NCBI RefSeq assembly: GCF_014202975.1
Contig: NZ_JACHHZ010000004.1
Location: forward strand, 124,001 to 188,000
From: Povalibacter uvarum
Lineage (GTDB): Bacteria > Pseudomonadota > Gammaproteobacteria > Steroidobacterales > Steroidobacteraceae
Direction of reading: 5' to 3'
DNA length: 64,000 nt
Below the pieces are notes generated by a model. It ran no database searches. It was not told the origin of the DNA and saw only the letters and a list, made by a program, of their open reading frames with translations. How positions within the stretch are numbered: the first letter of the stretch is position 1; the number at the start of each line of letters is the position of its first letter. The translations under genes and the position numbers were made by a program. Positions 30,764-47,421 of this stretch are shown here, one piece after another.

Positions 30764-31669
30764 TCAGCTGCGGAAGCCGATCTCCATGCGCCGGAAGTCG
30801 ATGGCAAAAATATCAACGCGGCCAATGACATCCATTCCCAGAATGATCGCCGGCCGGTCGTCCAGATCCCAGATGTCGAAGACATGGAAATCGCCGAAGG
30901 CGACGTGCGTGTTGTTGATGCGCACTTCGCCCATCCGGATCGTCTGCACGGCCGACAGGTCACCCGTGCTCACATCCAGCGTCGTACCGAAAACCGTTAC
31001 ATCGGTGATCGGCCGTCCTGCCTTCTTCAGAGCCGTCTGCAGTGAGCGATTCCCCAGCGTGCGCTCGGCCCCGGTATCGATGACCGCCAGCGCCCGCACC
31101 CGCCCAACCATCGCGGGAGCGACGAGCAGACCCGACGGCAGGCGCTTCGCCTTCACCGTGATGAAGTAGGGCGGAAGCTTCTGGGAATAGCCGAGCGTGA
31201 CCCGGTTGTAGCGGAAGTCGACGATGAGCTGTTTGTCGGTGAGCGCCGCGACGCCGAGGATGCCGTCGGCGTTGGCCATCACGTTGGATTCGATGACGGG
31301 CACACGCTGGTTGGTCAGCACCAGCGCGCCTGCCTGGAGCCGATCGATCGATGCGGCGGGCATCAAGGCTCGGCCCGTGACGCCATTCACGATGATCTGG
31401 GAATCGGCGCTATAGGCAAGCCCAAGGCGCCGCGCGAGCGCGCCCGACACCGTTGTGCTGTTGGCGCCCGTGTCCACGAGCAGATTGAAAGGCCCCTGGC
31501 CGTTGATCATCACCGGCGCAACGATCCGGCCGACCCGGTCCCGTTCGGTCGGCGCGGCAAACAGAGGGCGCGCGTCGTCGGGTGGAGGGTCTGAAACCGT
31601 CTCTCCCGGCTCACAAATGCCCGTGGAGCACGCGAGGAGAGACGCCGCGAATAGGGCCTGGCGCAGCAT
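30764..31669 (-). CDS. exported protein with two retropepsin-like aspartic protease domains
   Basis: The 301-residue product has a likely export signal with a lipobox-like LLAC (LFAASLLACSTG). Two aspartic protease motifs follow: LLVDTGANST near residue 65 and AVIDTGAERT near 196, each followed by a hydrophobic partner segment (DGILGVAALT; PAIILGMDVIG). A single-chain double domain could form one active site from two Asp residues, as in pepsin, where retroviral enzymes need a dimer. It is likely periplasmic. It is divergent from the first TonB receptor, across 421 bp. Substrate unknown. Confidence 0.85.
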   Translation of the reverse strand: MLRQALFAASLLACSTGICEPGETVSDPPPDDARPLFAAPTERDRVGRIVAPVMINGQGPFNLLVDTGANSTTVSGALARRLGLAYSADSQIIVNGVTGRALMPAASIDRLQAGALVLTNQRVPVIESNVMANADGILGVAALTDKQLIVDFRYNRVTLGYSQKLPPYFITVKAKRLPSGLLVAPAMVGRVRALAVIDTGAERTLGNRSLQTALKKAGRPITDVTVFGTTLDVSTGDLSAVQTIRMGEVRINNTHVAFGDFHVFDIWDLDDRPAIILGMDVIGRVDIFAIDFRRMEIGFRS

Positions 31670-32090: not shown

Positions 32091-35000
32091 ATGTCGATGA
32101 ATAACTCAGTACAGCGCGCTGTACGCTTCGCGTTGTGCGGCGGTGCTGCCGTCGCAGCCGCAGCGACACTTCCGGCAAACGCAGCAGACACGCCTATCCA
32201 GGAAGTCGTCGTTACCGGTTCACGCATTTCGCAGCCGAACCTCACCACCACCAGCCCGATCACCCAGGTCACCGCGGAAGACGTGGCCGTCCAGGGTGTC
32301 GCCAAGATCGAAGACCTCGTCAACTCGTTGCCGCAGGCATTCGCCGCTCAGAACGCGACGGTTGCCAACGGCTCGACCGGTACCGCAACGGTCAACCTGC
32401 GCGGCCTCGGCTCGCAGCGCACTCTCGTCCTCATCGACGGCCGTCGCATGCCGTACGGTGGTGTGACGAACTCCGCTGCTGACTTGAACCAGATCCCGAC
32501 CGCGATGGTCGAGCGCGTCGAAGTGCTGACCGGCGGTGCATCCGCTGTGTACGGCTCGGACGCGATCGGCGGCGTCGTCAACTTCATCATGAAGAAGGAC
32601 TTCGAAGGCATCCAGATCGACCTTCAGGGCAACGTCTACCAGCACAACAACGACTTCGGCGGCCCTGGCCAGGTCAAGCTGCGCGATGTGATCGAAGGCC
32701 GTGCGGCCACGAACCCGTCGCAGTTCGCCCTCCCGGACGACAACGTGACGGACGGCGAAGGCTATCAGGCGAACATCCTGATGGGCGTCGGCACTGACGA
32801 CGGCCGCGGCAACATCACTGCTTACGTGTCCTACCAGGACAACAAGCAGATCCTCCAGCGCGACCGTGACTTCTCGGCGTGCTCGCTGGGTGCCAACCCG
32901 ACGGTGTCGTTCGCTTGCGGCGGCTCGGGCACTGCATTCCCCGGCCAGTTCACGGACTTCAATTCCAACTTCAACGGCCGCGTCGGTCCGGACGGTCTGC
33001 CGAACACGGCGGACGACACGGTTGCGGACACCAATCCGCTGCCGTCGTACAACCTGTCGATCGATCAGGGAACGGGCGACTTCCGTAACTTCACGGCAGC
33101 GCTTGACCAGTACAACTTCGGTCCGGTCAACCACTTCCTGCGTCCCGACACCCGTTACAGCCTCGGCGCGATGGGTCACTACGAGATCAGCGAACACGCG
33201 GACGTCTACAGCCAGCTGATGTTCACCGACGTCCGGTCGGTGGCACAGATCGCTCCCGGCGGCGCGTTCTTCGATACGGCCACGATCAACTGCGACAACC
33301 CGTTCCTGTCGACGCAGCAGGCGACGCGGATTGGTTGCGGTGCTCTGGCGGACCTGGCGGCAAACACGATCGATCCGTCCACGATCACGCCGGAAAACCC
33401 GACGGGCAGCCCGTTCCTGGCCGATCCCAACATCGTTCCGCTGTACATCGGTCGTCGTAACGTCGAAGGCGGTGGTCGTCAGCAGGACTTCCACAACACG
33501 TCGTTCCGCACCCTCGTTGGTGTTCGCGGCTCGATCGCTGATGGCTGGGACTACGACGCAAGCGTGCAGTACTCCCGCACCACGGCTGACCAGCTCACGA
33601 AGAACTACTTCGCGATCGCCCGTCTGCAGCGCGCTATGAACGTCGTCATGGTGAACGGCGTGGAGACCTGCCAGTCCGTGGTCGACGGCAGCGATCCTCT
33701 GTGCGTGCCGTACAACGTGTTCGATCCGAGCGGTGTGACGCCGGAAGCGCTGAACTACCTGCAGGCTCCTGGCCTCCAGCAGGGCGTGATCGACCAGAGC
33801 GTCGCTCAGTTGGTCGTCACGGGTGACCTCGGCACGATCGGCTTCAAGCTCCCGACGGCAAGCGATTCCGTCAAGTTCGCGTTCGGCGTCGAAAGCCGCC
33901 ATGACAAGCTGGAAAACGTCACCGACGATCTGCTCACGACCTCGGGCCTCTCCGGCACGGGCGGTGCGACCATCGGTATCGCGGGTTCCACGAACGTCAA
34001 CGACATCTTCACGGAAATCAACGTTCCGCTGGTGCAGGACAAGGCCTTCGCCCAGCAGCTCGGCCTCGAGCTCGCGTATCGTTATTCGGACTACGGCGAC
34101 AGCGTGTCGACGGATACGTACAAGATCGGCGCCGACTGGGCACCGGTTGAAGACATCCGCTTCCGCGCAAGCTTCCAGCGTGCGGTCCGCGCGGCGAACA
34201 TCGTCGAGCTGTTCACGGCTCAGGGCTTCAACCTGTTCGACATGGACGGCGATCCTTGCGGCTTTGCTCTGCGCAACGCAGCGAATGCCCCGTCGGAAGA
34301 AGCGTGCGAAGCCACCGGTGTGGATCCGTCCCAGTACCAGTCTCCGGTGCTGGACAGCCCGGCAGGTCAGTACAACTTCACGCAGGGCGGCAACCGGAAC
34401 CTGGTTCCGGAAGAGTCGGACACGATGTCGTACGGCTTCGTGTTCACCCCGGGCTTTGCTCCGGGCCTGAGCGTGTCGGTGGACTACTTCGACATCGAAG
34501 TGACCCAGCTCGTCTCGACCTACGGTGCCGAGAACACGCTGAACTCCTGCTACCAGCTGAACGACCAGGTCGCGTGTGATCGCATCATCCGCAACCCGGA
34601 AAACGGCACGCTGTGGGTGGGTGAAGGCAACGTGCTCGACCTGAACACCAACATCGGTGGTCTGGAAACCTCGGGCGTCGACCTGAACATCGGCTATGCC
34701 TCGCTGCAGATGGGCAACATGGGCAGCCTGAACCTCAACCTGACGGCGACGTACCTGATCGATCTGATCACGGACCTCGGCACGCCGGGTGCGGAACCGT
34801 TCGATTGCACAGGGTACTTCGTGGGCGCCTGCGTCAGCTCGCTGACCACGGCGGTCAACCCTGAGCTGCGCACGCGTACACGCATTGGTTGGGCGACCCC
34901 GTGGAACGTCGACCTGGCACTCACGCACCGCTACATCAGCGCTGTGGAGATGTACCAGGCTCCTGCGAACCGTATCGATCGCAAGCTCGAAGCCGAACAC

Positions 35001-35189
35001 TATTTCGATATCTTCGGCAGCTGGCAGGCGCTCGAGAACACCACGATCCGCATGGGTATCAACAACGTTCTCGACAACGATCCGTCGCTCAACGCCAGCG
35101 TTGGTACGACCGGTAACGGCAACACCTATCCGCAGGTGTATGACGCTCTCGGTCGCTACGTCTTCGCCGGCCTGACTGTTACGTTCTAA
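32091..35189 (+). CDS. TonB-dependent outer membrane receptor 1
   Basis: The 1032-residue product has a signal peptide (VRFALCGGAAVAAAATLPAN), then a TonB box-like EVVVTGSRI, a plug domain with NLRGLGSQRTLVLIDGRRMP and the GASAVYGSDAIGGVVNFI block, and a long beta-barrel ending in the aromatic residue of LTVTF. It takes up a substrate across the outer membrane with energy from TonB/ExbBD. The substrate is not evident; large receptors of this type often import glycans or peptides. Very strong ribosome-binding site and terminator suggest high expression. A sulfotransferase gene follows on the same strand. Confidence 0.95.
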   Translation: MSMNNSVQRAVRFALCGGAAVAAAATLPANAADTPIQEVVVTGSRISQPNLTTTSPITQVTAEDVAVQGVAKIEDLVNSLPQAFAAQNATVANGSTGTATVNLRGLGSQRTLVLIDGRRMPYGGVTNSAADLNQIPTAMVERVEVLTGGASAVYGSDAIGGVVNFIMKKDFEGIQIDLQGNVYQHNNDFGGPGQVKLRDVIEGRAATNPSQFALPDDNVTDGEGYQANILMGVGTDDGRGNITAYVSYQDNKQILQRDRDFSACSLGANPTVSFACGGSGTAFPGQFTDFNSNFNGRVGPDGLPNTADDTVADTNPLPSYNLSIDQGTGDFRNFTAALDQYNFGPVNHFLRPDTRYSLGAMGHYEISEHADVYSQLMFTDVRSVAQIAPGGAFFDTATINCDNPFLSTQQATRIGCGALADLAANTIDPSTITPENPTGSPFLADPNIVPLYIGRRNVEGGGRQQDFHNTSFRTLVGVRGSIADGWDYDASVQYSRTTADQLTKNYFAIARLQRAMNVVMVNGVETCQSVVDGSDPLCVPYNVFDPSGVTPEALNYLQAPGLQQGVIDQSVAQLVVTGDLGTIGFKLPTASDSVKFAFGVESRHDKLENVTDDLLTTSGLSGTGGATIGIAGSTNVNDIFTEINVPLVQDKAFAQQLGLELAYRYSDYGDSVSTDTYKIGADWAPVEDIRFRASFQRAVRAANIVELFTAQGFNLFDMDGDPCGFALRNAANAPSEEACEATGVDPSQYQSPVLDSPAGQYNFTQGGNRNLVPEESDTMSYGFVFTPGFAPGLSVSVDYFDIEVTQLVSTYGAENTLNSCYQLNDQVACDRIIRNPENGTLWVGEGNVLDLNTNIGGLETSGVDLNIGYASLQMGNMGSLNLNLTATYLIDLITDLGTPGAEPFDCTGYFVGACVSSLTTAVNPELRTRTRIGWATPWNVDLALTHRYISAVEMYQAPANRIDRKLEAEHYFDIFGSWQALENTTIRMGINNVLDNDPSLNASVGTTGNGNTYPQVYDALGRYVFAGLTVTF

Positions 35190-35212
35190 CAGTCTTTCGG
35201 TAGACGATTGAA

Positions 35213-35247
35213 GGCGGCGGTCCCGTAAGGGGCCGCCGCTTTTTTTT
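35213..35247 (+). terminator. rho-independent terminator of receptor 1
   Basis: GCGGCGGTCCC pairs with GGGGCCGCCGC (one G-T pair) around a GTAA loop and is followed by eight T residues at 35240-35247. It begins 24 bp after the receptor stop codon. Confidence 0.93.
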
Positions 35248-35307
35248 GGGCTACGATCGCGGGACCCAAGGCTTCCCGAAGCCCGTGAACCATTGCCGAG
35301 ATCCCAC

Positions 35308-36376
35308 ATGCCAGCCGCTCCTCAATCCGGCGCTCTCTCGCAAGAACTGCTGGCCCGCCTGCCGCAGTCGCCGGATGTCCTCGTTCACAAGCTCGACCTG
35401 TCGCGAAACGCAGCGCTGCTGGTCGAGTTCAGCCGTGGCGCGTACGACCGCGCCAGCTTCCTGGATGACCGGATACTGGGGGCGGCGACTAAGGGTGGCT
35501 GGGTCATGCTCCCGCGTCTTCACGAGGCAGCCAGGACGCTGGGCGTGAGGCCGGTCCACTTCATCTTTCACACCGGCCATGTCGGATCGACGCTGCTGAG
35601 TCGATTGCTGGAGAGCACGGGGCGGGTGCTGTCGTTGAGGGAGCCGCTCGCCTTGCGCGATCTGGCCGATGCTGCCGATAGCGTCGGCAGCATCGATTCA
35701 TTGTTGAGCAACACGCAGTTCGGGGAGCTGCAGTCGTCCATGCTGACGCTCTGGGGCCGAAGCTACGAAGCGACACAGAGTGTCGTCGTGAAGGCCACGA
35801 GCAGCGCCTCGCGGCTCGCTCCGTCGATTCTCGCCGCCGCTCAGCAGAGTAGGGCGATCTACATGAACCTTCGCGCCGAGCCGTATCTTGCGACACTGCT
35901 CGGTGGGCAGAACTCGTCCATCGATCTGCGCGGTCATGGTCCGGGAAGGATTCGCCGCTTGCAGGCACACCTGTCGACGCAGCTGCAACCCTCTGCATGC
36001 GCTGAGTCTGGGAGAGCTGGCGGCTATGAGCTGGCTGGTCGAAACGTGGACGCAGCTCGATCTCATCGCACGGTTCGGCGATCGCGTGATGGCTCTGAAC
36101 TTCGACGAGTTCCTGCTCGACGTGACGTCGGCGATGCGGCGTGTGCTGGCCCAGCTCAATCTGCCGCTCGATGAGGGGTACCTTGCCGGTGTTGCCAGCA
36201 GTCCCGTTCTCAGCCAGTACTCGAAAGCGGCGGAGTTTGCCTACTCTCCGCAGGTGCGCGCGGATGTGTTGAGCGAATCACGGCAGCGCAACGCCGACGA
36301 GATCGGTCGCGGAATGCGCTGGCTGGAGGCGCTGGCCGCGAAGGAGGCGGGCGTGGCCCGGATACTCGGCGCCTGA
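35308..36376 (+). pseudogene. sulfotransferase family gene with a frameshift
   Basis: The first frame (from ATG 35308) gives an N-terminal half with a P-loop-like PAPS-binding segment, FIFHTGHVGSTLLSRLLEST. Near 35960-35995 the sensible protein jumps to the next frame, where ALSLGELAAMSWLVETWTQL and RVMALNFDEFLLD continue a sulfotransferase-like fold to the TGA at 36374-36376. One extra base (or two missing) explains it. It may be a true inactivating mutation or a sequencing error. Intact, it would be about 355 residues and transfer sulfate to a hydroxyl or amine. It follows the receptor 1 terminator. Confidence 0.8.
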
Positions 36377-36403
36377 CGGGCTGAGACGGCCGTCCCGCCG
36401 CGC

Positions 36404-37069
36404 TCAGGTCGTCGACCACATGCGCATGAGATTCTGGCGTACGACGTCGAGCCGGACGCGGTTCTCCCATCGCATGGTCGTGCCTTCCATCGCCGCGATG
36501 TCGTTGAGCTCGTAGACCTGCATGCGCTGATGCTGGTCGACGATCAGGCTCTCGATGAACGTGATCGAAACCAGTCGCTGGCCTGAGCGCACGGGAATGA
36601 CTTCGTGCAGCGTCGTCGACGGGTAGACGATGGCCTCGCCGGGCGCGCCCTTGAACGGGATTCTCTGGTTGCCGATGTTGATGGCGAGCTCGCCGCCCTC
36701 GTAGCTCGAGGGATCGCTGATGAAGACCGTGCAGGACAGGTCCGAGCGCAGCCGCGCATTCCCCAGCGGGATCAGCGCGGCATCGGCGTGCGCACCGTAC
36801 TTCATGCCCGGCTCGTAGCGGCTGAGGAGCGGCGGCGCGACCCGCTTCGGCATCGCAAAGTCCATGAATTCGCGCGAGCGCGCGAACGCCGCGTTGACGA
36901 TCTGCACGGACTCCGCGTACTTCGGATCGGCGGGATCCGCCTGCTGGTTGAGCTTGGTCTGGTTGGCCGGATTCGTTGCCCGGCCATCGACGAATTTGAG
37001 GTCGCGGCTGATTTCGTCGAGCCGGGCGACCTCGGCGGCAGTGAGGAGCTGCTTGATCTTCAGAAACAC
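36404..37069 (-). CDS. PiuC/YbiX-type Fe(II)/2-oxoglutarate dioxygenase (PKHD hydroxylase)
   Basis: The 221-residue product begins FLKIKQLLTAAEVARLDEI, which is how PiuC/YbiX proteins start. It has the iron site His and Asp in KYGAHADAAL, the second His in STTLHEVIPV, and an Arg in GQRLVSITF that would bind 2-oxoglutarate. In many proteobacteria this family sits beside siderophore-type TonB receptors, and its substrate is not established. The GTG at 37069 with GGGGA 8 bp upstream fits the family start better than a TTG at 37099. It ends 27 bp from the convergent sulfotransferase gene. Confidence 0.9.
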   Translation of the reverse strand: MFLKIKQLLTAAEVARLDEISRDLKFVDGRATNPANQTKLNQQADPADPKYAESVQIVNAAFARSREFMDFAMPKRVAPPLLSRYEPGMKYGAHADAALIPLGNARLRSDLSCTVFISDPSSYEGGELAINIGNQRIPFKGAPGEAIVYPSTTLHEVIPVRSGQRLVSITFIESLIVDQHQRMQVYELNDIAAMEGTTMRWENRVRLDVVRQNLMRMWSTT

Positions 37070-37134
37070 GGAAAAGTCCCCGCGGTACGCGATGCGCAAT
37101 GCTGCGGCGATGCCGGGGCCGATGCAAGTCGCGG

Positions 37135-38313
37135 TCAGATCCTGCCGTCGGGAGAGACCCCGTTGAAGGCATCCGTCGCGGCGATGACCTTGTCGATCGC
37201 CGTGCGCTCTTCGGGCGAGAGGCGCGGATTCCAGACGTCGCAGATGAAGATGATGCGGATCTGGTCGCTGTCGTTCCAGGCCTCGTGCTCGATGGTGTCG
37301 TCAAAGACCCAGGCCTGCCCGACGCGCCACTCCCGCGTTTCTCCGCCGACACGGAAGCCGCAATGCGCCGGAACGATCAGCGGCAAGTGGACGACGAGCC
37401 TGAAATTCGCCACGCCCGTGTGCGCCGGAATGCGTGTCTTCGGCTGCAGGACGGAGAACATGGCTGCGGGCGATCGCATGCGCACCTGAGGCTGCGGGAG
37501 CTTCGCCAGCGTCTGCATGATCGCGGGCGCACGTGCGCAGTGATCTTCGATCGGCTTGCCCCGGTCGAAGAAATGGAACGCGCTCCAGCGCGGTGAATGA
37601 TTCAGCTCGCGCCACTGGTCGAGCGGCAGGTGATCGTCGTAGTGGATGTAGGGGGCGAAGCCCGCCTGGTCTTCCCGCACGATCGCATCGAGCTCGCGCT
37701 GGAATGCGGGTGTCTGCGCCTCGAACTCCTCGATCCAGGGAAATTCCTCGCGATCGTAGAACTCGATCGAGGGCAGGCCGGGATAAAGGTAGTCGGAAGG
37801 GTTCTGGTGATAGCGCTTGCGAACGCGCAGTGTCGTGTCGATGAATGCATCGATGCGGCGCTGCTCGCTGCCGGAGCACTGGCCACGCGCATCCGTCACA
37901 TGATCACGAATGTACTCGCTGAGCTTTTCGGTATGCCGGCCGCTGATCTCACGGGCATGGGCAGCGGCTTGAAGGGTGGGGGCATCGAGATATTTCTCGT
38001 CGGGCGCATTGGCCAGCGCGGCGGCGTACCAGGTTGCCGCCTGTTTCACGTCGCCGTCGCGCTCGAGCAGCGTGCCGAGCATGAGCAAAGCATGGAAATG
38101 GCGCGGCTCGATCCGCAGCGCTTCCCGCAGCGCGGCGTATGTCCCGCTAGTGTCGTTCAGCTGACGCGCTGCCGTAGCGAGGCCCAGCCACGCTTGCAGG
38201 TTCTGCCGGTCCGACTGGACCAGCTGCGCGAGGAGGTCCCGCGCACGCGCAAAGTCGCCGACAGACATCGCCTGCCGAGCCGCCTGATTCAGGCTGACCG
38301 CATTGTTCGTCAT
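37135..38313 (-). CDS. TPR-aspartyl/asparaginyl beta-hydroxylase (paralogue A)
   Basis: The 392-residue product has TPR-like helical repeats at residues about 1-130 (ARQAMSVGDFARARDLLAQL; ALREALRIEPRHFHALLMLG) and a C-terminal aspartyl/asparaginyl beta-hydroxylase domain. The latter has RLVVHLPLIVP, GGETREWRVGQAWVFDDTIE and HEAWNDSDQIRIIF, with the family's two iron-binding His residues (in VVHLPL and IEHEAW) and no third acidic ligand, as usual for this family. It would hydroxylate Asp or Asn side chains or a small substrate. It lies 65 bp upstream of the PiuC-type gene and is likely cotranscribed with it. Confidence 0.9.
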   Translation of the reverse strand: MTNNAVSLNQAARQAMSVGDFARARDLLAQLVQSDRQNLQAWLGLATAARQLNDTSGTYAALREALRIEPRHFHALLMLGTLLERDGDVKQAATWYAAALANAPDEKYLDAPTLQAAAHAREISGRHTEKLSEYIRDHVTDARGQCSGSEQRRIDAFIDTTLRVRKRYHQNPSDYLYPGLPSIEFYDREEFPWIEEFEAQTPAFQRELDAIVREDQAGFAPYIHYDDHLPLDQWRELNHSPRWSAFHFFDRGKPIEDHCARAPAIMQTLAKLPQPQVRMRSPAAMFSVLQPKTRIPAHTGVANFRLVVHLPLIVPAHCGFRVGGETREWRVGQAWVFDDTIEHEAWNDSDQIRIIFICDVWNPRLSPEERTAIDKVIAATDAFNGVSPDGRI

Positions 38314-38502
38314 ATCCCGCTACACCGACGCGAAAAGCACTTCTGCCTGCCGATGCATATCCGGGGCCAGCCGGACATCGGCTGGATGCCGAGCGTTCTT
38401 ATTGCCTGCGACTATAGCGCCGGGGCGACTGCAGGTCACTGCACCGTTCGCTATGAGCCATAATCCTTTCTTCTGCCTGAAGCCGGAGCCGCGCGTCTCT
38501 GT

Positions 38503-39672
38503 ATGTATTCCATCGACGAAAGTCTGCGGGCCGCAACCGACGCATTGCGCAGCGGCGATCCGCTGCGGGCCCGGGACCTTTTCGCGAAATCGCTCGGTGC
38601 CGGCGCCAATCAGGCTGCAGCCCTGCTCGGGCTTGCGCGTGCCTGCGCTGCCCTGAAGGACGAAGCCGGACAGACTGCCGCCGTGGATCGTCTGCTCTCT
38701 GTCGATCCACGCAACGTCCTGGGTCTGATCATGAAGGCCGATCAGCTTGCGGGCGCGGGTGACTCGCGATCCGCGACCTCCTTCTACCTGGCCGCGCTGA
38801 GGAACGCGCCGGCGCGCGAACAGCTGACGCCCGAAGTGGTGACGGAGCTGCGTCGAGCCAAGCAGATCTGCGACGGGTACGCGGCCCACTACCAGAATTA
38901 CGTCGTGCAGCAGCTCTCGGATCGCGGTTTCGATCCGGCGACTTCCAGTCAGCGTTTTGCCCAGTCGGTGGACATCATCCTCGGCAAGCGGAAGATCTTC
39001 GTTCAGGAACCGAAGTACTACTACTTCCCCGGCCTGCCGCAGATCCAGTTCTATGGTCGCGAGCAGTTCCCCTGGCTGTCGGCGGTAGAGCAGGCGACGG
39101 CGGACATCCGCGACGAGTTGCTGAGCGTGATGAACGAGCCCTCCGCATTCGCGCCGTACGTCCAGGGAGACGCGAATCGGCCGCGCAAGGACCAGGCGGG
39201 AATGCTGAACAATCCCGCGTGGAGCGCTTTCTATCTCTGGAAGAACGGCGAGGCGGTCGCGGAAAATGCGGCGCGTTGCCCGAAGACGCTGCGTGCATTG
39301 CAGGATGTGCCGTTCTCACGGACGCCGAACAGATCGCCGTCGATCCTCTTCTCGCTCCTGAAGCCGGGCGCGCACATTCCGGCGCACCACGGGCTCGTGA
39401 ATACCAGGCTCATCTGTCACCTGCCGCTCATCGTGCCGCCCAACTGCAGGTTCCGGGTCGGCAATGAGACGCGGCATTGGGAGCAGGGCAAGGCCTGGCT
39501 GTTCGACGACACGATCGAGCACGAAGCATGGAACGATAGCGATCAGACGAGGGTCATACTGCTCTTCGACGTCTGGCGGCCTGAACTCACGACGGAGGAG
39601 CGCGACCTCGTCACCGCGCTCTTCGCGGCCATCGATGCGCACAGCGGCCAGAAGCCTGAGTGGTCGATCTAA
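38503..39672 (+). CDS. TPR-aspartyl/asparaginyl beta-hydroxylase (paralogue B)
   Basis: The 389-residue product shares the architecture of paralogue A: TPR-like N-terminus (DALRSGDPLRARDLFAKSLG) and a beta-hydroxylase domain with RLICHLPLIVP and LFDDTIEHEAWNDSDQTRVI. The two C-terminal domains are clearly similar, while the N-terminal parts differ more. It is divergent from paralogue A with 189 bp between the starts, so the two may share control. Two more genes follow on its strand at short distance (18 and 38 bp). The ATG at 38503 has GGAG-like sequence upstream. Confidence 0.9.
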   Translation: MYSIDESLRAATDALRSGDPLRARDLFAKSLGAGANQAAALLGLARACAALKDEAGQTAAVDRLLSVDPRNVLGLIMKADQLAGAGDSRSATSFYLAALRNAPAREQLTPEVVTELRRAKQICDGYAAHYQNYVVQQLSDRGFDPATSSQRFAQSVDIILGKRKIFVQEPKYYYFPGLPQIQFYGREQFPWLSAVEQATADIRDELLSVMNEPSAFAPYVQGDANRPRKDQAGMLNNPAWSAFYLWKNGEAVAENAARCPKTLRALQDVPFSRTPNRSPSILFSLLKPGAHIPAHHGLVNTRLICHLPLIVPPNCRFRVGNETRHWEQGKAWLFDDTIEHEAWNDSDQTRVILLFDVWRPELTTEERDLVTALFAAIDAHSGQKPEWSI

Positions 39673-39690
39673 TTAGCGGAGCTGAAGACT

Positions 39691-40215
39691 GTGATTCGAA
39701 CGATCGTGTTTGCCGGGGCTCTAGCAGCCATGTACTCGCCGGGCCTCCTGGCTTCGGATGCCGACACCGTTGCCGCGATGCGCGGCTGTGCGGGCGAGAG
39801 GGACGACGCCAGGCGACTCGCGTGCTACGACGCGAAGATCAACGCTGCCGCTCCCAACGCAAGCGCGTCATCGGCGCCTGCCGCAGCCGCTGTTGGCGCC
39901 GCCGCCGCTGCCGCACCGAGCGCGGAACAGAATTTCGGATATCGGGGGAGCGTCGCTCGCGAACAGATCGACCGCGAGGAGGCGGCGAAGCCCAAGATCG
40001 AGCAGCTGACGGCACAGGTGAAGGGCGTGACGATGAGGCCTCATGGCGAATTCGTCGTTACCCTGGACAATGAGCAGGTCTGGGCGCAGAAGCGTCCGGA
40101 TTCCAAAGTCCGGCCGCAGGTTGGCGACTCCGTGACGATCAAACCGGGATCGTTGGGCTCGTTCCATCTCGTCACGTCCGGTGGACGCTCGACGCAGGTG
40201 TCACGCGTCCAGTAG
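39691..40215 (+). CDS. small exported protein with a CYD-type motif
   Basis: The 174-residue product has a signal peptide (IRTIVFAGALAAMYSPGLLA), then MRGCAGERDDARRLACYDAK, an Ala-rich linker, and a C-terminal block with VVTLDNEQVWAQ and GDSVTIKPGSLGSFHL. The Cys-x(n)-RLACYD pattern plus LDN-QVW and LGSF blocks recur in uncharacterised exported proteobacterial proteins. The two Cys residues could form a disulfide. The GTG start at 39691 has GGAG upstream. It sits 18 bp after paralogue B and 38 bp before the TPR-oxygenase, so it is probably in that operon. Confidence 0.75.
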   Translation: MIRTIVFAGALAAMYSPGLLASDADTVAAMRGCAGERDDARRLACYDAKINAAAPNASASSAPAAAAVGAAAAAAPSAEQNFGYRGSVAREQIDREEAAKPKIEQLTAQVKGVTMRPHGEFVVTLDNEQVWAQKRPDSKVRPQVGDSVTIKPGSLGSFHLVTSGGRSTQVSRVQ

Positions 40216-40253
40216 GCCGCTGGCGCCATGCTCCCGGCACATGAGTAAGGGAC

Positions 40254-42074
40254 ATGAGTGCGCCGGACAATCATTCTCATGCGTTGCGGGCAGCTGCCAA
40301 GCTGCTCGAGTCGGGTCGCGCGCACGAAGCGGCCGAGCTGTGTCGACGCGTCGCGACTGACGCACCTGCCTTCGCTGATGCGCACCAGATGCTGGGCGTC
40401 GCACTACGGCGGCTGGGCGAGCTGGACGCTGCCGATCGCGCGATGCTCCGTAGCATCGAGCTTGCGCCTGACAGGGCGGATTTCCTGACGAATCGAGCGA
40501 ATCTGCTGCGTGCGCTCGCGAGGCACGCGGAGGCTGAAGAAAACTATCGCGCCGCAATTCATCGCGACACGCAATTCCGCCCGGCCCGCTCGGGCTTGCT
40601 GCGGTTGTTGAACGACAAGGAAGATCCGCGGGCGGAAACCGAAGCGGTTGCGATGCTGGCCGTCGATCCGTCGGATGCGGATCTCTGGCATGAACTCGGC
40701 GTTGCACTCCGGATTCGCGGGCGACTCGCCGAGGCTGAAGCCGCGTATCGTCGTGCGATCGAGATGCGACCCGCCTACGCGGTGGCATGGCACAACCTCG
40801 GTGCGCTGCTCTCCCAGCAGCGCCGACCGGAGGAAGCGCTTGCTGCCTTCGATCGCGCAAGAGCGCTCGGCGCGAAAGGCGCGGCCTTGCACTACAACCG
40901 CGCTCGCGCGTTGCACGACCTGGATCGATTCGATGAGTGCGAAGCCGAGCTGCTCGATGCAATCTCTTCGGCACCGGGGCACACGGATTCGCTCGTCATG
41001 CTCGCGCGCGTGCGATTTGCACGCGGCGACGCTCAGTACGCCCGTTCGTTCGAGATCGCGATCGCGGCGGATCCCGCCAATGCATCGTTGCGAACGGCGT
41101 TTGCAGCTGTGCTGCGTGATGCCGGAGATTCAGATCGGGCTCGCGTGGTCATCGAAGAAGGGCTGCGGCGTGATGATTCAGATGCCTCGCTGCGGATTGC
41201 TTTGGCTGCTACGTTGCAGGAAAGCGGTGACGGCGATGCCGCCTCACGGATGCTGGAACAGGTCGAGCAAAGACAGCGAAGCCGCATCAGCTATCAGCAT
41301 CTCGCCATATCGACATTGCTGAGCGCCAGTCGACCCCAGGAGGCGCTGGCGCTGGCAAGGCATCGGCGCAGCCAGGCGCCATTCGATCAGATCGCGATCG
41401 CTCACGAAGCCGTCGCCGCTCGCGTACTCGGAGACGCGGCGTATGAAGTGCTCTACGACTACGACAGCTTCGTCCAGGTGTTCGATCTGCCGTCGCCACC
41501 GGGCTGGACGTCGATCGAACAGTTCAACGAGCAGTTGCACGACGCGCTGACGGATCTGCATCGGCTGCAAGCTCATCCGCTTGGGCAGAGCCTGCGCAAC
41601 GGGACGCAGACGACGCGGAGCCTGTTGGCGCAATCGCATCCGGTCATTCGTGCCTTCCTCGATTCGCTGCCAGCTCCCATCGCGCAGTATCGCGAAAGGT
41701 TGCCGCGCCGAATCGAGGCGCATCCGCTGCTCGCGCGAAACATCGGTACAGCGAGTCTCGTCGGCTGCTGGTCCGTTCGCCTCGCTCGCGGCGGCTTCCA
41801 TGTCAATCACGTCCATCCGGAAGGCTGGCTGAGTTCCGCGTACTACGTGACGGTGCCGGCCGAATCTATCGACACCAGCAAGCGGGCCGGCTGGTTGAAG
41901 TTCGGCGAGCCGCGCTTCGCCGTGCCGGGAATCACCGCGGAGCGATTCGTTCAGCCGAAAAGTGGTCGGCTGGTCCTGTTTCCCTCTTACATGTGGCACG
42001 GAACGACGCCGCTGGAAGCGGACGAGGTTCGTCTTTCGATCGCATTCGACCTGATCACGACGCTTGATCGGTGA
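40254..42074 (+). CDS. TPR protein with C-terminal Fe(II)/2-oxoglutarate oxygenase domain
   Basis: The 606-residue product has about ten TPR-like repeats over residues 1-370 (for example DLWHELGVALRIRGRLAEAE and VAWHNLGALLSQQRRPEEAL). The C-terminal 150 residues match the putative 2OG-Fe(II) oxygenase family: VNHVHPEGWLSSAYYVTVP, GWLKFGEPRFAV, KSGRLVLFPSYMWHGTTPL and a final VRLSIAFDL, giving His, Glu or Asp, and His for iron and Arg for 2-oxoglutarate. The TPR part would hold a protein partner. Third gene of a likely three-gene operon starting at 38503. Confidence 0.88.
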   Translation: MSAPDNHSHALRAAAKLLESGRAHEAAELCRRVATDAPAFADAHQMLGVALRRLGELDAADRAMLRSIELAPDRADFLTNRANLLRALARHAEAEENYRAAIHRDTQFRPARSGLLRLLNDKEDPRAETEAVAMLAVDPSDADLWHELGVALRIRGRLAEAEAAYRRAIEMRPAYAVAWHNLGALLSQQRRPEEALAAFDRARALGAKGAALHYNRARALHDLDRFDECEAELLDAISSAPGHTDSLVMLARVRFARGDAQYARSFEIAIAADPANASLRTAFAAVLRDAGDSDRARVVIEEGLRRDDSDASLRIALAATLQESGDGDAASRMLEQVEQRQRSRISYQHLAISTLLSASRPQEALALARHRRSQAPFDQIAIAHEAVAARVLGDAAYEVLYDYDSFVQVFDLPSPPGWTSIEQFNEQLHDALTDLHRLQAHPLGQSLRNGTQTTRSLLAQSHPVIRAFLDSLPAPIAQYRERLPRRIEAHPLLARNIGTASLVGCWSVRLARGGFHVNHVHPEGWLSSAYYVTVPAESIDTSKRAGWLKFGEPRFAVPGITAERFVQPKSGRLVLFPSYMWHGTTPLEADEVRLSIAFDLITTLDR

Positions 42075-42090
42075 TGCGGCATCGCGCGCC

Positions 42091-43323
42091 TCAGATCTGT
42101 TCGCGGAAACTCATGCGGTAGCGAACCGATCGGGTTTCGACCGGCGCACCGTTCTCGAACCGGGGTCGATAGATCCAATCCGCGAGTGCCTTCAGTGCCG
42201 CTCGCTTATTCGGCTCGCTCGTGTCCGCCTCGACGACGCGCGGACCGGCAACGTAGCCCTGCGGCGTGACGTCGAACTCGATGACCACGAAAGTCACACG
42301 GATCTCGTTTTCGGGCAGCGCACGGTGCTTCGCTGCGGCTGGCGGGAAGCTCATGTAGACAGGGACGGGGAGCTGCAGCGATTCGCGAGGTGTCATCGGG
42401 TCCGTCGCTTTCAGCTCGAACGTTCTGCGGTAGTACGGCAGTGCGTTTGCGGGCTGTCGCGCTAGTTGCAGCCAGTCGCCGGTTTGCAGTAGCACGGTCC
42501 GATGGATGGCTGGATCAATCTGTGCCGGATTGTTGTCCGCGATCTGCAGCGCGCGTTGCAGGTAACGAAGCCCTGAGGGATGCAGCTTGCGCCAACTGCC
42601 GTAGTTGTCCGCTCCGACCGATAGCAACTGCCGGCGCGTCTGCACTGCCATGTCGTTCGTTCGGCTCGCGTCGTAATCGGTATCGCCCGTTGCTTCGCGG
42701 CGATAGACGTCGGCCAATCCCGCAAGCGGTTCGACGAGTGCGATCGAGTCCGGCCCGGCCTGGCTCTCGATGATCTGCAGCGCTTGCCGGTAGCGTTGTC
42801 TCGCATCCAGGAAGTCGCCGGTCGCAGCGTGCCACTGTGCGACGTCCGCCATCGCGAGCGCGGTGCGCTGATCGCTCGGCCCGTAGAGACGCTCGTGAAC
42901 TCTCACTACGTACTCGAGCGCGCCCAGAGCGCGCGCGAAGTCTCCATCGATCGAGTACAGAGTGGCGCTGCCACGAAGAGCGTCGATCTGATCTTCGTTG
43001 AACAGGCCGGAGCTGCGTCGGCTGATCGAGATCGCTCGTTCGAATGCCGACTGTGCGGAAGCAGAGTCGATGGGCGAGAGCGCTCGGCCGAGTGAGGTCA
43101 GCGGTGCGACAAGGGCAGTGCTGTTCGATCCGCTGCGAGCTTCGAGGAGCGAGACCGCACTCGCATAGCTCGTCGCGGCGCCTCGTGCATCGCCTGCACG
43201 CAGTTGTTCGTCGCCGAGTTGCAGGTATGCGGACGCTGTTTCAGCAGGCGCGATTGCCGCGTCGCCCGGCGCGCCTTGCGCGCTGAGCACCGATCCAATC
43301 ACAGCCAGGATCAGCGCACGCAT
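42091..43323 (-). CDS. exported TPR protein with TonB-like C-terminal domain
   Basis: The 410-residue product has a short signal peptide (MRALILAVIGSVLSAQGAP), TPR-like repeats (YLQLGDEQLRAGDARGAATS; DFLDARQRYRQALQIIESQA), and at the end a TonB C-terminal-like domain: VVIEFDVTPQGYVAGPRVVE, then ALKALADWIYRPRFENGAPV and SVRYRMSF. Canonical TonB keeps an uncleaved membrane anchor and a Pro-rich spacer; here the anchor may be cleaved and the spacer is replaced by TPRs. It is divergent from receptor 2 and may bind that receptor's TonB box. Its energising role is unproven. Confidence 0.82.
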   Translation of the reverse strand: MRALILAVIGSVLSAQGAPGDAAIAPAETASAYLQLGDEQLRAGDARGAATSYASAVSLLEARSGSNSTALVAPLTSLGRALSPIDSASAQSAFERAISISRRSSGLFNEDQIDALRGSATLYSIDGDFARALGALEYVVRVHERLYGPSDQRTALAMADVAQWHAATGDFLDARQRYRQALQIIESQAGPDSIALVEPLAGLADVYRREATGDTDYDASRTNDMAVQTRRQLLSVGADNYGSWRKLHPSGLRYLQRALQIADNNPAQIDPAIHRTVLLQTGDWLQLARQPANALPYYRRTFELKATDPMTPRESLQLPVPVYMSFPPAAAKHRALPENEIRVTFVVIEFDVTPQGYVAGPRVVEADTSEPNKRAALKALADWIYRPRFENGAPVETRSVRYRMSFREQI

Positions 43324-43640
43324 CGCCTTCGAGCTTAGCAGCAATTCGGCAGGAAACCCGTTCTGCACATCTGTGCGACTCGCGTTGGTCGCGAACAACG
43401 ATACGAGTCAATCGACGACAATGAATTTTTCGCAAGATTCCCTGCGAAACGATGCACTCGTTGCGCACTTGCAGGGCAATCGGGCAACAGCAGCATGTGT
43501 CGCGGTGTCGCGGCGTTATGGTCCGGCCACATCGCTGTGTTGCTAACCGCACACAGCGTGATCAACCAACGGAACGGTCCTGCGTCATCGATTGCGATGG
43601 CCGCCATTGGTTCCACTCTTGTCGCAGCGAGGAATCAACC
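43324..43640. promoter_or_regulatory. divergent upstream region of TonB receptor 2, 317 bp
   Basis: This region separates the TPR-TonB gene from receptor 2. It holds the inverted repeat TTCGCA-N8-TGCGAA at 43429-43448 in a locally AT-rich segment, a possible operator. GAGGA stands 7 bp before the receptor ATG. No gene is convincing here. Confidence 0.45.
43429..43448. promoter_or_regulatory. inverted repeat, possible operator
   Basis: TTCGCA and TGCGAA flank AGATTCCC. It lies between divergent starts, about 105 bp from the TPR-TonB start and 190 bp from receptor 2. Confidence 0.3.
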
Positions 43641-46589
43641 ATGTACTGCAAGAACCACGATCGGGTGCGCAATCTGCGCACTGCCATTCATCTAGCGTTG
43701 CTCAGCAGCGCAATCGGCGCGATCGCCCCCGCACAGGCTCAGGAGACGTCGGGCACTCCTGAAACTGTCGAGGAAATCGTCGTCACCGGATCGCGTATCG
43801 CACGCCCTGATTACACGGCCGCCAGCCCTGTCGTGTCGGTCGGCGCGGATGTTTTCAATCGGGTCGCCGCGGCGACACCGGAGCAGGTGCTCAACACCCT
43901 GCCGCAGTTCGTCCCGAACATCACGTCGAACAGCAACAACCCTGGGAACGGGCAATCGAACATCGATCTGCGTGGTCTCGGCACGAATCGCAACCTCGTG
44001 CTCCTCAACAATCGCCGGCTGCCAGCATCCAACGCCGATGGCACTGTCGACATCAACATCATCCCGACCGCACTCATCAAGGATGTGCAGATTCTCACGG
44101 GAGGTGCATCGGCGGTGTATGGCTCCGACGCGATCGCCGGTGTCACCAACTTCATCCTGCGCGACGACTTCGAAGGCGTGGAGCTCAACAGCACCTTTGG
44201 CCTGACCGATGAGAGCGACGGCCAGGAGTGGACTGCCAACATCACGATGGGCGGCAACTTCGCCGACGATCGCGGCAACGCAGTGGTGCACGTCGGCTAC
44301 ACCGAGCGCGAACTGGTACGGCAGGGCGCGCGCGAATTCTCTTTCCTGGATCTCGACGTCCGCCGCCAGGGCAATACGCCCGGCGGTTCGGCGACGATCG
44401 AGCAGGGACGCATCCTGTCCAGCTCGGCGAATCTCGCCAACCAGGGAATCATCGACTCGGTGTTCTCGCAGTATCAGGGCTACGTCCCCGGCTCGGTGAC
44501 GCCATCGCGCGCACTGGGTACGAATCCGGACGGCACGCTGTTCTCACAGGGCAACGGCACGCCGAACAGCGTCGTCAATTACACCGGCGAGCGGGATGCA
44601 TCGTTCAATCCGGACGCGTACTCGTACAACTTCGCGCCGCCGAACCTGCTGCAGTTGCCGATCGAGCGCTGGAACCTGACGGCGTTCATGAACTATGACC
44701 TGACCGACAACGTCAACGCGTATTTCTCGGCGCTCTATACGACGTATGGCGCCGATACGAATCTCGCGCCCACACCGGCAACCGGACTCACCGTGCCCGT
44801 GACGAATCCGTACATCCCGGCGGACCTGGCGACGATCCTCGCATCACGGCCGGATGCCGACGCGGATTTCGGCTTCTCGCGCCGCATGTCCGAAGTCGGA
44901 CCGCGTACTGATGTGTTCGACGTCGACGTCTGGCAGTACACCGCGGGCCTGAAGGGAACTGTGGGAGACGGCTACAACTGGGACGTGTATGTGTCGGGTT
45001 CACGCGTGGAAGAGCGCAACACGCAGGGCGGTGATCTGTCGCTGCAGCGAATCCAGGAATTGCTGGAAGCGCCCGACGGCGGCGTTGCGATCTGCGGCGG
45101 TTTCAACGTCTTCGGCTCAGGCAATGTCAGCCCGGGATGCGCAGCGTATGTCACGACGTACTTCACGAACCTGACGACGGTGGAGCAGGTGTCCGCTGAA
45201 GCAACTTTCGGCGGCAGGATGTTCTCGATGCCGGCGGGCGATGCGCGGTTCTCCATCGGCGCGGCATATCGCGAAGACAGCTATGCGTTCGAACCGGACT
45301 CGAGTGTCGCCTCGGGCGATCTCGTCGGCTTCAACCAGCAGAGTCCGCTGACAGGCTCGATCAACGCGACAGAGTTGTTCGCCGAAGCGCTGTTCCCGCT
45401 GTTGCGTGACGCACCCGCGGCGCAACGCCTGGATGTGACGCTGGGCTATCGCTGGTCGGACTACAACCTGTCCGGCGCCGCGAACGCTTACAAGGCCGAA
45501 GTCGACTGGCAGGTGGTGGACGCGGTGCGATTGCGTTCGTCGTACCAGCGTGCCGTGCGGGCACCGAGCATCGACGAACTGTTCAGCCCGCCGAACCAGG
45601 GCTTCCCGCCTGTGATCGAGGATCCGTGCGACATCACCTCGACGGCCCGTACATCCGGCGCGAATGCGGATGCGGCGAACGGCGGCAGTGACGCGATCCG
45701 CCAGCTCTGTCTGCAGACAGGCGTGGGCGCCGATGTCATCGACGACTACTCCTATCCGTTTGCGCAGGTGGAAACCAATGCCGGCGGCAATCCGAATCTC
45801 CAGGAGGAAAGCGCCGACACGATCACCTTCGGCGTGGTGTTCGATTCGCCGTTCTCGGGCGCGGCGCTCGAGAATCTCCGCGCATCGATCGACTACTGGA
45901 TGATCGAGATCGACGATGCGATCGTGCAGACGCCGGGCGGCGAGATCTTGCTGCTCTGCTACGGCGCGAACGGCAACAACCAGAGCTTCGATCCGAACGA
46001 TCCGACGTGCCAGGTCGTCGACCGCTCCGTCTATGGCGACTCGACACCAGTCATCTCGGCCGGTATCACCAGCAATGCCTCCAAGCTGGAGACGGCGGGT
46101 ATCGACGTGCAGATCGACTGGGGTCTCGATTTCGGCGGCGGTGGCCGGCTCGCGACGAACTTCGTCTACACGTATCTCGAGAAATACGACCTGTCGATTC
46201 GCGAGGGTCTGCCTGTGCTCGATCGCGTAGGGCAGGTGAGCGATACGCCGGGAGAAACGTTGCCCGAATGGAAGATGCTCCTGAACATGGACTACTACTT
46301 CCTGAACGACATGTTCCGCATCGGCGCCCGCTATCGCTACATGCCGTCGATGGACAACAAGTACAAGAGCTACGACGACATCACTACCGTGGGAACGCCG
46401 AGCATCGACTACCTGGATCTCAATGCATCCTGGTACCTGACGAGCGCGGCGGAGCTTTCGCTTGGTGTGACGAACGTGACCAACCAGGAACCGCCGCTGT
46501 ACACGGCGTCGATCGAGATGAACACCGACCCGAGCACGTTCGATGTACTGGGACGGCGTTATTTTGCCCGATTGAATTACAAGTTCTGA
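43641..46589 (+). CDS. TonB-dependent outer membrane receptor 2
   Basis: The 982-residue product has a signal peptide (IHLALLSSAIGAIAPAQAQE), a TonB box-like EEIVVTGSRIARPDY, a plug with DLRGLGTNRNLVLLNNRRLP and GASAVYGSDAIAGVTNFI, and a barrel ending in FARLNYKF. It is of the same subfamily as receptor 1 but is clearly not a recent copy. A low-copy substrate cannot be named. The ATG at 43641 has GAGGA 7 bp upstream; the frame is open to 43452 but without signals. It ends at a strong terminator, convergent with a 2OG oxygenase gene. Confidence 0.95.
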   Translation: MYCKNHDRVRNLRTAIHLALLSSAIGAIAPAQAQETSGTPETVEEIVVTGSRIARPDYTAASPVVSVGADVFNRVAAATPEQVLNTLPQFVPNITSNSNNPGNGQSNIDLRGLGTNRNLVLLNNRRLPASNADGTVDINIIPTALIKDVQILTGGASAVYGSDAIAGVTNFILRDDFEGVELNSTFGLTDESDGQEWTANITMGGNFADDRGNAVVHVGYTERELVRQGAREFSFLDLDVRRQGNTPGGSATIEQGRILSSSANLANQGIIDSVFSQYQGYVPGSVTPSRALGTNPDGTLFSQGNGTPNSVVNYTGERDASFNPDAYSYNFAPPNLLQLPIERWNLTAFMNYDLTDNVNAYFSALYTTYGADTNLAPTPATGLTVPVTNPYIPADLATILASRPDADADFGFSRRMSEVGPRTDVFDVDVWQYTAGLKGTVGDGYNWDVYVSGSRVEERNTQGGDLSLQRIQELLEAPDGGVAICGGFNVFGSGNVSPGCAAYVTTYFTNLTTVEQVSAEATFGGRMFSMPAGDARFSIGAAYREDSYAFEPDSSVASGDLVGFNQQSPLTGSINATELFAEALFPLLRDAPAAQRLDVTLGYRWSDYNLSGAANAYKAEVDWQVVDAVRLRSSYQRAVRAPSIDELFSPPNQGFPPVIEDPCDITSTARTSGANADAANGGSDAIRQLCLQTGVGADVIDDYSYPFAQVETNAGGNPNLQEESADTITFGVVFDSPFSGAALENLRASIDYWMIEIDDAIVQTPGGEILLLCYGANGNNQSFDPNDPTCQVVDRSVYGDSTPVISAGITSNASKLETAGIDVQIDWGLDFGGGGRLATNFVYTYLEKYDLSIREGLPVLDRVGQVSDTPGETLPEWKMLLNMDYYFLNDMFRIGARYRYMPSMDNKYKSYDDITTVGTPSIDYLDLNASWYLTSAAELSLGVTNVTNQEPPLYTASIEMNTDPSTFDVLGRRYFARLNYKF

Positions 46590-46649: not shown

Positions 46650-47354
46650 TCAGCTGGCCCGGAACCAGCCTGTGATGCTGTAGCGTCCCGCTGCCGCGAA
46701 CGTGGCCACCTGCGTGACCGTGTGCACCATCGGCACGCGCATGAGGTTCACTGCATTGAACGCGGGAGTGAACGCTTCGTGCAGATGGCCATAAGCATCC
46801 GGAAAGGCCAGCAACCCGCCCCACTCGACGCGCCAGAGCGGCGTGAAATTGAAGACGTAAGCGACGCGGCGGTTCTTGCCCTTCACATCATCATCGTGAC
46901 AGGTCAGGAAATCGCCGGGGTTGTAGAGCGTCGCCTGCGCGTCGGCGAAGGTAATGTCATCGAATCCCGTGGCGACCCGGGCGAACTGCAGCAGCGGCGG
47001 TGAGTTCAGGAATTCGTGGAATCGTCGCAGGATCAGCGGCACGGCCCGGGCGTCTTCGGCTGTATCGATCCTGCAGTTGCTGAAGCGATACGCAAATCCC
47101 CGGGCTGCGGCACGATCGACCCGTCGCGACAGTTCCGCTCGCAGCGATGGTTCGATCTGCTCGAAGCTGCGCGCCGGAATATCGCGAGGTCCCTGATCGT
47201 CGTGGATCGAGAGCTGCCAGGGCGTCTGCTCGGCAAGACAGGAGAAAACCGCTTTCGCGGCATCTGCCTTCAGGATGCCGGCGATGTGCACGCGGCCGGA
47301 TCGATCGAAGAAACGACGCACGAGCGCTGCGTCCGCGGAGGCATCGAGTTCCAT
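46650..47354 (-). CDS. 2OG-Fe(II) oxygenase family protein
   Basis: The 234-residue product has a prolyl-hydroxylase-like double-stranded beta-helix: iron-binding His and Asp in FLTCHDDDVKGKNRRVAYVF, distal His in VPMVHTVTQVA and Arg in GRYSITGWF for 2-oxoglutarate. The substrate is unknown. It is convergent with receptor 2, sharing a terminator region, which repeats the receptor-next-to-oxygenase theme. The ATG at 47354 is chosen because the longer frame (to 47441) runs into the terminator hairpin of the OmpA gene. Confidence 0.87.
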   Translation of the reverse strand: MELDASADAALVRRFFDRSGRVHIAGILKADAAKAVFSCLAEQTPWQLSIHDDQGPRDIPARSFEQIEPSLRAELSRRVDRAAARGFAYRFSNCRIDTAEDARAVPLILRRFHEFLNSPPLLQFARVATGFDDITFADAQATLYNPGDFLTCHDDDVKGKNRRVAYVFNFTPLWRVEWGGLLAFPDAYGHLHEAFTPAFNAVNLMRVPMVHTVTQVATFAAAGRYSITGWFRAS

Positions 47355-47385
47355 GGTGCGATGAGTATAGAGGCAACCCTTCGCC

Positions 47386-47421
47386 CAAAAGAAAGCGGCG
47401 GATGTTGTGCACATCCGCCGC
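47386..47421 (-). terminator. rho-independent terminator of the OmpA-like gene
   Basis: On the minus strand GCGGCGGATGT pairs with ACATCCGCCGC (11 bp, 5-base loop) and is followed by TTTCTTTT. It lies 37 bp after the OmpA-like stop codon. Confidence 0.9.

Follow-up and report, generated by a model that had tools for sequence, protein, structure and literature searches.

Several TonB-dependent receptors are encoded beside one small oxygenase dependent on Fe(II) and 2-oxoglutarate (2OG), as in the piuA-piuC, fiu-ybiX and cciT-cciO pairs. In excerpts of one study, the genes for CciT and CciO stand next to each other reciprocally in many bacteria, and the activity of CciO is called unknown; the same excerpts cite PiuA-PiuC and fiu-ybiX, and a suggestion that a siderophore conjugate taken up through PiuA is metabolised by PiuC (PMC12004943). 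The first-pass annotation of the DNA described here also states that PiuC-type genes accompany iron receptors. We analyzed a 64,000-nucleotide stretch (the window) of the 6.32-Mb genome of Povalibacter uvarum (G000:C4:124001-188000), in which a gene island at 32091-46589 likewise places a 2OG oxygenase beside a TonB receptor. However, the island differs from the pairs in that it and its surroundings hold six oxygenases and two sulfotransferases (one broken), several of them with tetratricopeptide repeats (TPRs). Receptor-oxygenase pairs are already known, and the larger set is a variant of such loci that is new within the open-licence literature; no described system with the full set, of which the first-pass annotation knew none, was found there, most subscription papers being outside this scope.

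A uvrA-like gene (23998-29736) on one side and a glgC-like gene (49795-51483) on the other, both recognised by eye, enclose the two receptors (TBDR1 and TBDR2) and their enzymes. The enzymes are a sulfotransferase-like gene (SULF), a PiuC-type oxygenase, two putative TPR hydroxylases of the AspH type (AspH1 and AspH2), a TPR oxygenase (TPR-2OG5) and a further oxygenase (OG4). The gene types named at first pass are all present at 32091-46589, with OG4 just after, and their family profiles are mostly above cut-off (Table 1). That list was accurate as far as it went and missed a small protein (SECR), an aspartic protease (AspProt), a Sel1-2OG oxygenase and a TPR sulfotransferase. The last two adjoin the glycogen genes beyond the island; we counted them as members of the set because their orthologues (57% and 62%, respectively) sit inside the block of a congener (G006, L034), which runs AspH2-AspH1-PiuC-TPR sulfotransferase-Sel1-2OG-SULF. 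No receptor was found in the 20 kb covered of that 26-kb contig.

An AspH2 match at E ≤ 0.001 was present in 33 of 60 genomes, the window genome included and weak and partial matches counted. With 99 Plug hits in the window genome, a point placed at random has a 14% chance of falling within 5 kb of one. Of the 24 AspH clusters in 20 of the relatives with a match, genomes that are not independent of one another, 16 lay within 5 kb of a related receptor against 3.6 expected, and 5 of 24 lay within 150 bp against 0.08 expected, the expectation being a lower bound in four of the relatives because at least 141 receptors were counted there. Six clusters had no receptor within 9 kb (one each in G008, at a contig end, G017, G025 and G045, and two in G058). 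Receptor detection in the linkage counts used this receptor subfamily and can miss others, as it did the receptors on C1 of the window genome. The grouping of receptor and AspH is more than chance.

A census covered 47 of 51 AspH loci (L072 and L078, as duplicates, and L061 and L062, as loci of the non-TPR type, were left out), with match thresholds set by hand for each query. These loci do not count as independent: L035 and L036 adjoin each other on a single contig, and each of the pairs L038/L039 and L069/L071 is nearly a duplicate. A receptor was present at 32 of the 47; of the other 15, seven run into contig ends (L034, L037, L040, L050, L055, L065 and L082). The co-occurrence in relatives by which the first-pass annotation would have its reading judged is thus seen both here and in the 24 clusters. 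A sulfotransferase accompanied AspH at 22 of the 32 receptor-linked loci versus 2 of the 15 others (20 versus 2 for the TPR sulfotransferase), and further oxygenases did so at 19 versus 2. TPR-2OG5 was found at 11/32 linked and 0/15 other loci, OG4 at 4/32 and 1/15 (and in L140, described below), PiuC at 7/32 linked loci, SECR relatives at 14/32 and 2/15, and AspProt relatives at 6/32 and 0/15; Sel1-2OG reached the census threshold at one linked locus and in L034, with weaker relatives in L140, L147 and L149. Loci with a linked receptor come, among others, from Steroidobacteraceae, Halieaceae and a Rubrivivax. AspH follows the receptor on the same strand at 60-103 bp in two congeners, in two further genera of the family, in Rubrivivax and in Halieaceae (about 60 bp in the last). 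On the AspH tree the linked state required 14 changes against a shuffled mean of 16.2, and 45 of 500 shuffles were as low; the state is weakly clustered, and therefore linkage was not one old event. One census contig, L069, is filed as a Klebsiella pneumoniae metagenome-assembled genome (MAG), and its AspH genes are near-identical to those of the uncultured proteobacterial L071; the label is doubtful.

A class-wide sample gave TPR-AspH matches at E ≤ 1e-60 in 11 of 369 genomes. Of the nine that lie outside the family, five AspH loci, from four families, hold both receptor and sulfotransferase (L140, L146, L147, L148 and L149), whereas four do not (L150-L153), L150 and L153 being cut by contig ends and the L152 gene having an internal stop. 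Receptors were Pfam-confirmed in all five islands and the TPR sulfotransferase in L140, L146, L148 and L149; in L147 the sulfotransferase is a SULF-type tblastn match only (92 bits), with no Pfam match for that frame. L140 carries almost the whole kit: two TPR sulfotransferases, a receptor, a 2OG5-type oxygenase, AspH, a SULF-like gene, OG4, Sel1-2OG and a fusion protein described below. Among open reading frames (ORFs) of at least 50 residues, edge-cut TPR proteins apart, no non-enzyme family other than the receptor has relatives in every one of the five. By eye, the islands of L140, L147 and L149 (two other families) seem to adjoin genes resembling a 2-oxoglutarate dehydrogenase operon.

The two activities also occur in one polypeptide. 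A protein of 604-643 residues matches both AspH and the TPR sulfotransferase at eight loci of the family and close MAGs, with PF05118 and PF13469 Pfam-confirmed together in L038 and L050; L068 has a ninth copy that is cut short. A receptor lies in the stretch at seven of the eight, L050 ending at a contig edge. This fusion supports hydroxylation and sulfation of one substrate. Its hydroxylase part retains a His-x-Asp and a second His, and is nearest in the Protein Data Bank (PDB) to L-proline cis-4-hydroxylase (4p7w, E 5.3e-8); its sulfotransferase part is nearest to CurM (4gbm), with TPST1 matching weakly. An AlphaFold2 model of the fusion (three rows) had a mean confidence (pLDDT) of 38.4 and was not used. 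A search of the window genome at E ≤ 1e-40 found no fusion, and in G071 the fusion (C33) and an AspH-receptor island (C22) occupy separate places. Among the 369 genomes of the class-wide sample, eight gave a fusion match, five full-length and three to the N-terminal half; of the latter, L144 (by Pfam) and L145 have a receptor and L143 has none.

Two fusion loci have distinctive surroundings. L142:3072-12157 resembles a cluster for a ribosomally synthesized and post-translationally modified peptide (RiPP), in which the fusion occurs with Asn_synthase, an HPr-kinase-like protein (below cut-off), PqqD, Sulfotransfer_1 and a collar protein; a 51-residue ORF there (8760-8915, minus strand) resembles what we take, from its motif, to be a lasso-type precursor. 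At L138:6342-13544, the fusion and a TPR sulfotransferase lie beside a large exported-looking beta-helix protein, and no receptor was found.

The closest characterized relative of AspH1 and AspH2 is human AspH, whose iron and 2OG residues, with the carboxylate absent, are described in an excerpt of PMC6817910 and whose iron site is contrasted with the usual triad in an excerpt of PMC13168262. The AlphaFold2 model of AspH2 had a mean pLDDT of 90.5, and its top 11 PDB matches were all human AspH, ten of them over both TPR and oxygenase parts, with 372 alignment columns across the two. The oxygenase alone fits human AspH 5apa well (TMt 0.82, 3.4 Å), whereas the whole chain superposes poorly (TM 0.46, 13.4 Å), and therefore the TPR part of AspH2 may sit at another angle. 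Residues S284, H295, G297, H306, H340 and R350 of AspH2 are invariant in 23 rows and align with human S668, H679, G681, H690, H725 and R735. The bacterial and human enzymes thus share the TPR and oxygenase parts, PF05118, a two-histidine iron site without a carboxylate, and the Ser/His/His/Arg residues. They differ at human Lys666 and Arg688, which hold the substrate aspartate and are replaced by Leu282 and Ile304 in AspH2 and by Met and Val in AspH1; therefore, the residue modified may be one other than Asp or Asn. The human enzyme further differs in its setting, as the island enzymes have no endoplasmic reticulum and the linked receptors no epidermal growth factor (EGF) consensus. Both remain putative AspH-type hydroxylases, with Asp/Asn hydroxylation as a candidate activity. 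The lipid hydroxylases OlsC (87.6 and 113.2 bits for the pair, cut-off 450) and LpxO (50.3 and 67.8 bits, cut-off 500) were rejected as identities.

For the catalytic domain of the TPR sulfotransferase, the only PDB matches, seven of seven, were protein-tyrosine sulfotransferases. The island enzyme shares the PF13469 family with TPST1/2 but is bacterial and TPR-fused, with no signal-like stretch seen; tyrosine is only a candidate acceptor. Both AspH2 and this domain have protein-acting enzymes as their nearest solved relatives. The PiuC-type gene belongs to the PiuC (PKHD-type hydroxylase) family by NF003974. The receptors themselves fell below the cut-off of the siderophore receptor model TIGR01783 (47 bits for TBDR1 and 37.7 for TBDR2 versus 223.5), and no NCBIfam receptor model was over cut-off among the matches listed (25 of 31 for TBDR1, 17 of 17 for TBDR2).

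Taken together, we consider it rather likely that the island is a hydroxylation-and-sulfation kit for a shared polypeptide. That the receptor is its main target is a more tentative reading, plausible and short of probable, and we hold with the same reserve that the kit travels with one broad class of TonB-dependent receptor, the receptor being its most likely substrate. TPR-docked cytoplasmic oxygenases (AspH1, AspH2 and TPR-2OG5) would hydroxylate an unfolded polypeptide destined for export, joined by PiuC, OG4 and Sel1-2OG; the TPST-like sulfotransferases (the TPR sulfotransferase, and SULF, broken here) would then add sulfate, partly onto the new hydroxyls. The substrate would most likely be the receptor of the locus before export, with SECR as second candidate. 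2OG and 3'-phosphoadenosine 5'-phosphosulfate (PAPS) are cytoplasmic cofactors, and since no signal-like stretch was seen in the enzymes, the reactions would take place in the cytoplasm. The gene set, its recurrence, the intact iron and 2OG residues of the AspH pair and the fusion in relatives are observed; that a single polypeptide serves as common substrate, and that the receptor fills this role, we infer. Several points favour the receptor: it is the sole non-enzyme family shared by the five extra-family islands, the relatives of the enzymes are of the protein type, TPRs suggest docking, and no importer was seen. A wider form of this proposal is rather unlikely: Gammaproteobacteria would hydroxylate and then O-sulfate their own TonB receptors before export, using TPR-docked AspH-like hydroxylases and TPST-like sulfotransferases, in some species as one two-domain enzyme, with sulfation of outer-membrane proteins depending on hydroxylation or, by analogy with CurM-like sulfotransferases, with sulfate activating the new hydroxyl for elimination.

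The set ties receptors to AspH-like and TPST-like enzymes and to the fusion, and so reduces the question to a single testable idea, in which one polypeptide gains both oxygen and sulfate. A receptor both hydroxylated and sulfated would represent a kind of outer-membrane protein modification that is new. It would also give a role to the bacterial relatives of human AspH, variants of which cause Traboulsi syndrome (excerpt of PMC12816917).

A number of results weigh against the receptor as substrate or against joint function of the set, beginning with the receptor sequences. We compared 37 of 40 linked rows (dropping L036_3, which is not a receptor, L074 and L041_17392) with 40 unlinked sequences from the 99 Plug hits of the window genome, picked for long frames and represented by the longest frame of each stretch. 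'Unlinked' here means without AspH only, as L099 lies near a PF13759 gene and several others near halogenases; 34 of the 40 match a receptor profile, and the results hold with these 34. The EGF consensus of human AspH was found in 0/37 linked and 0/34 profile-confirmed unlinked receptors, and acidic-Tyr patterns were rarer in linked receptors (1.65 versus 3.45 per receptor, or 3.15 with the 34). Linked receptors were richer in cysteine (1.17 versus 0.68%, the same with the 34), in asparagine (6.30 versus 5.72%) and in C-x-[DN] (32 of 37 versus 20 of 40 receptors). However, the cysteine excess is a clade trait, because the two nearest unlinked receptors are also high (1.51 and 1.75%). No column conserved in at least 19 of 21 linked receptors, hand-picked from the TBDR1 clade, differed in both unlinked receptors of that clade. 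TBDR1 has one cysteine in its signal-like stretch and 12 in six pairs (8-16 residues apart); four pairs are invariant across the 21 aligned linked receptors, and the pairs probably form disulfide-closed loops.

Gene content adds further points on this side. At the chosen thresholds, no sulfotransferase was found at 10 of the 32 linked loci (L042, L044, L046, L069, L074, L077, L079, L080, L081 and L083, which include four Halieaceae and Rubrivivax) and no further oxygenase at 13. Caulobacterales, Maricaulis, Pseudoduganella and Cellvibrionaceae, among others, have AspH genes with no receptor beside them; in records of these four, the stretch shows no receptor and the surroundings look housekeeping-like by eye. 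Only one of the five full-length fusions outside the family has a receptor nearby (L140), none being found near those of L138, L139 (near a contig start), L141 and L142. PF05118 also includes lipid and free amino-acid hydroxylases. In the window genome, SULF is broken, one of three PF13469 matches lies 56 kb and one of three PF13759 matches 180 kb from any receptor, and a hairpin with a T-run lies between TBDR1 and SULF and another 3' of TBDR2, which argues against a single transcript. The first-pass interpretation, in which TPR-held proteins or peptides are hydroxylated and sulfated, is partly supported: the fusion and the protein-acting relatives uphold one substrate carrying both modifications, while the sequence tests for the receptor as that substrate were negative.

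Action on an imported ligand (a peptide, siderophore or small molecule), hydroxylated and sulfated after uptake, appears somewhat unlikely. A PiuC-family member stands in the island, and the model has its precedent in the neighbouring CciT and CciO and in the proposal cited in excerpts of PMC12004943 for PiuC and the PiuA conjugate. PiuC is nevertheless found at only 7/32 linked loci, TPR docking and the TPST and AspH relatives indicate polypeptides, and no inner-membrane importer was seen among the island genes scanned, although the cofactors are cytoplasmic. We regard it as unlikely that the substrate is another exported polypeptide, either SECR or a peptide made elsewhere, with the receptor as partner or importer. 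The SECR relatives at 14 of the 32 linked loci, a possible SECR-like protein seen by eye in Halieaceae islands, and the settings of the fusion in L142 and L138 would fit this. However, tblastn found no SECR in the five extra-family islands, and no room for a precursor gene was seen in 32.1-47.4 kb, longer overlaps or a precursor elsewhere being possible; no ORF of at least 20 residues lies wholly inside the longest intergenic space (189 bp, 38314-38502), which was rejected as a precursor site. RiPP precursor or leader-binding Pfam matches were not among the scanned window genes, where an aspartic protease is present and no dedicated precursor search was made. A mere hot spot, in which unrelated receptors and oxygenases gather at a permissive uvrA-glycogen site, is improbable: uvrA or glg relatives do flank the islands of several congeners and receptors are numerous (99 Plug hits), but the same set turns up in other families and other locations (L140, L147 and L149), and in Rubrivivax and Halieaceae, and the fusion proteins and the same-strand AspH genes 60-103 bp after receptors also speak against it.

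The remaining features concern the island itself. SULF, the sulfotransferase-type gene of the first-pass annotation, directly follows TBDR1 and is split over two frames near 35990, both pieces matching one intact 314-residue relative (L035:8222-9166); the frameshift is either real decay or an assembly error. ORF 35293-36174 has no Pfam match at E 0.01, the intact relative scores 25.6 bits to PF13469 (cut-off 27), and homologues are intact in several relatives. The TPR protein with a TonB-like end, named as a member of the set at first pass, drops out of it: relatives were found at 0 of 47 related AspH loci, and it seems to be a local arrival. The true start of TBDR2 is probably 43641, at the head of a signal-like stretch recognised by eye. 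A space of 189 bp separates the divergently oriented AspH1 and AspH2.

Table 1. Features of the island and its surroundings (window coordinates unless a contig is given).
Feature	Position	Strand	Evidence
AspProt, retropepsin-like aspartic protease	30764..31669	-	PF13650 89.6 bits (cut-off 24.3); signal-like N-terminus by eye
TBDR1, TonB-dependent receptor, 1032 aa	32091..35189	+	PF07715 and PF00593 above cut-off; six close cysteine pairs
SULF, sulfotransferase-like gene, frameshifted near 35990	35293..36376	+	two-frame pieces match intact homologues, e.g. L035:8222-9166
PiuC-type Fe(II)/2OG oxygenase	36404..37099	-	NF003974 200.4 bits (cut-off 143); PF13640 41.8 bits; PDB PiuC 9qn0, E 3.3e-28
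AspH1, putative TPR and Asp_Arg_Hydrox hydroxylase	37135..38313	-	PF05118 146.6 bits, 7.2e-43 (cut-off 22.6); TPR_16 above cut-off; catalytic residues kept
AspH2, putative TPR and Asp_Arg_Hydrox hydroxylase	38503..39672	+	PF05118 174.3 bits, 2.1e-51 (cut-off 22.6); TPR_16 below cut-off by sequence
SECR, small protein, candidate substrate or accessory	39691..40215	+	signal-like N-terminus by eye; VasI match below cut-off only
TPR-2OG5, TPR and 2OG-FeII_Oxy_5 oxygenase	40254..42074	+	PF13759 84.8 bits (cut-off 27); many TPR matches
TPR protein with TonB_C-like end	42091..43398	-	PF03544 28.1 bits (cut-off 24.6); NCBIfam tonB_Cterm 26, below 27.1
TBDR2, TonB-dependent receptor, 1045 aa	43452..46589	+	PF07715 and PF00593 above cut-off
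OG4, 2OG oxygenase (2OG-FeII_Oxy_4)	46650..47441	-	PF13661 70.0 bits (cut-off 27); just past 32091-46589
Sel1-2OG oxygenase	52074..53039	+	PF13640 38.3 bits (cut-off 27); Sel1 below cut-off
TPR sulfotransferase, TPST-like	53073..54557	-	PF13469 145.9 bits and TPR
Trp-halogenase clusters, about four	G000 C4 505-510 kb, C6 213-230 kb, C6 438-442 kb, C2 27-37 kb		

The uvrA-like ORF of 1912 residues is about twice the usual length and looks like a tandem-fused UvrA. Elsewhere in the same genome, in L085 (G000:C1:1178000-1197999), 46 bp separate a TPR sulfotransferase (9388-11700, minus) from a receptor that belongs to a different subfamily (6963-9341, minus), and in L086 (C8) a TPR-2OG gene and a receptor share a strand with 656 bp between them. 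Trp-halogenases, which are flavin halogenases, resemble the island in being oxidative enzymes beside TonB receptors in the same genome, but they are neither 2OG nor PAPS enzymes and form separate clusters. All ten strong PF04820 matches lie within 8.1 kb of a Plug hit, whereas the two weak ones, from one gene, do not.

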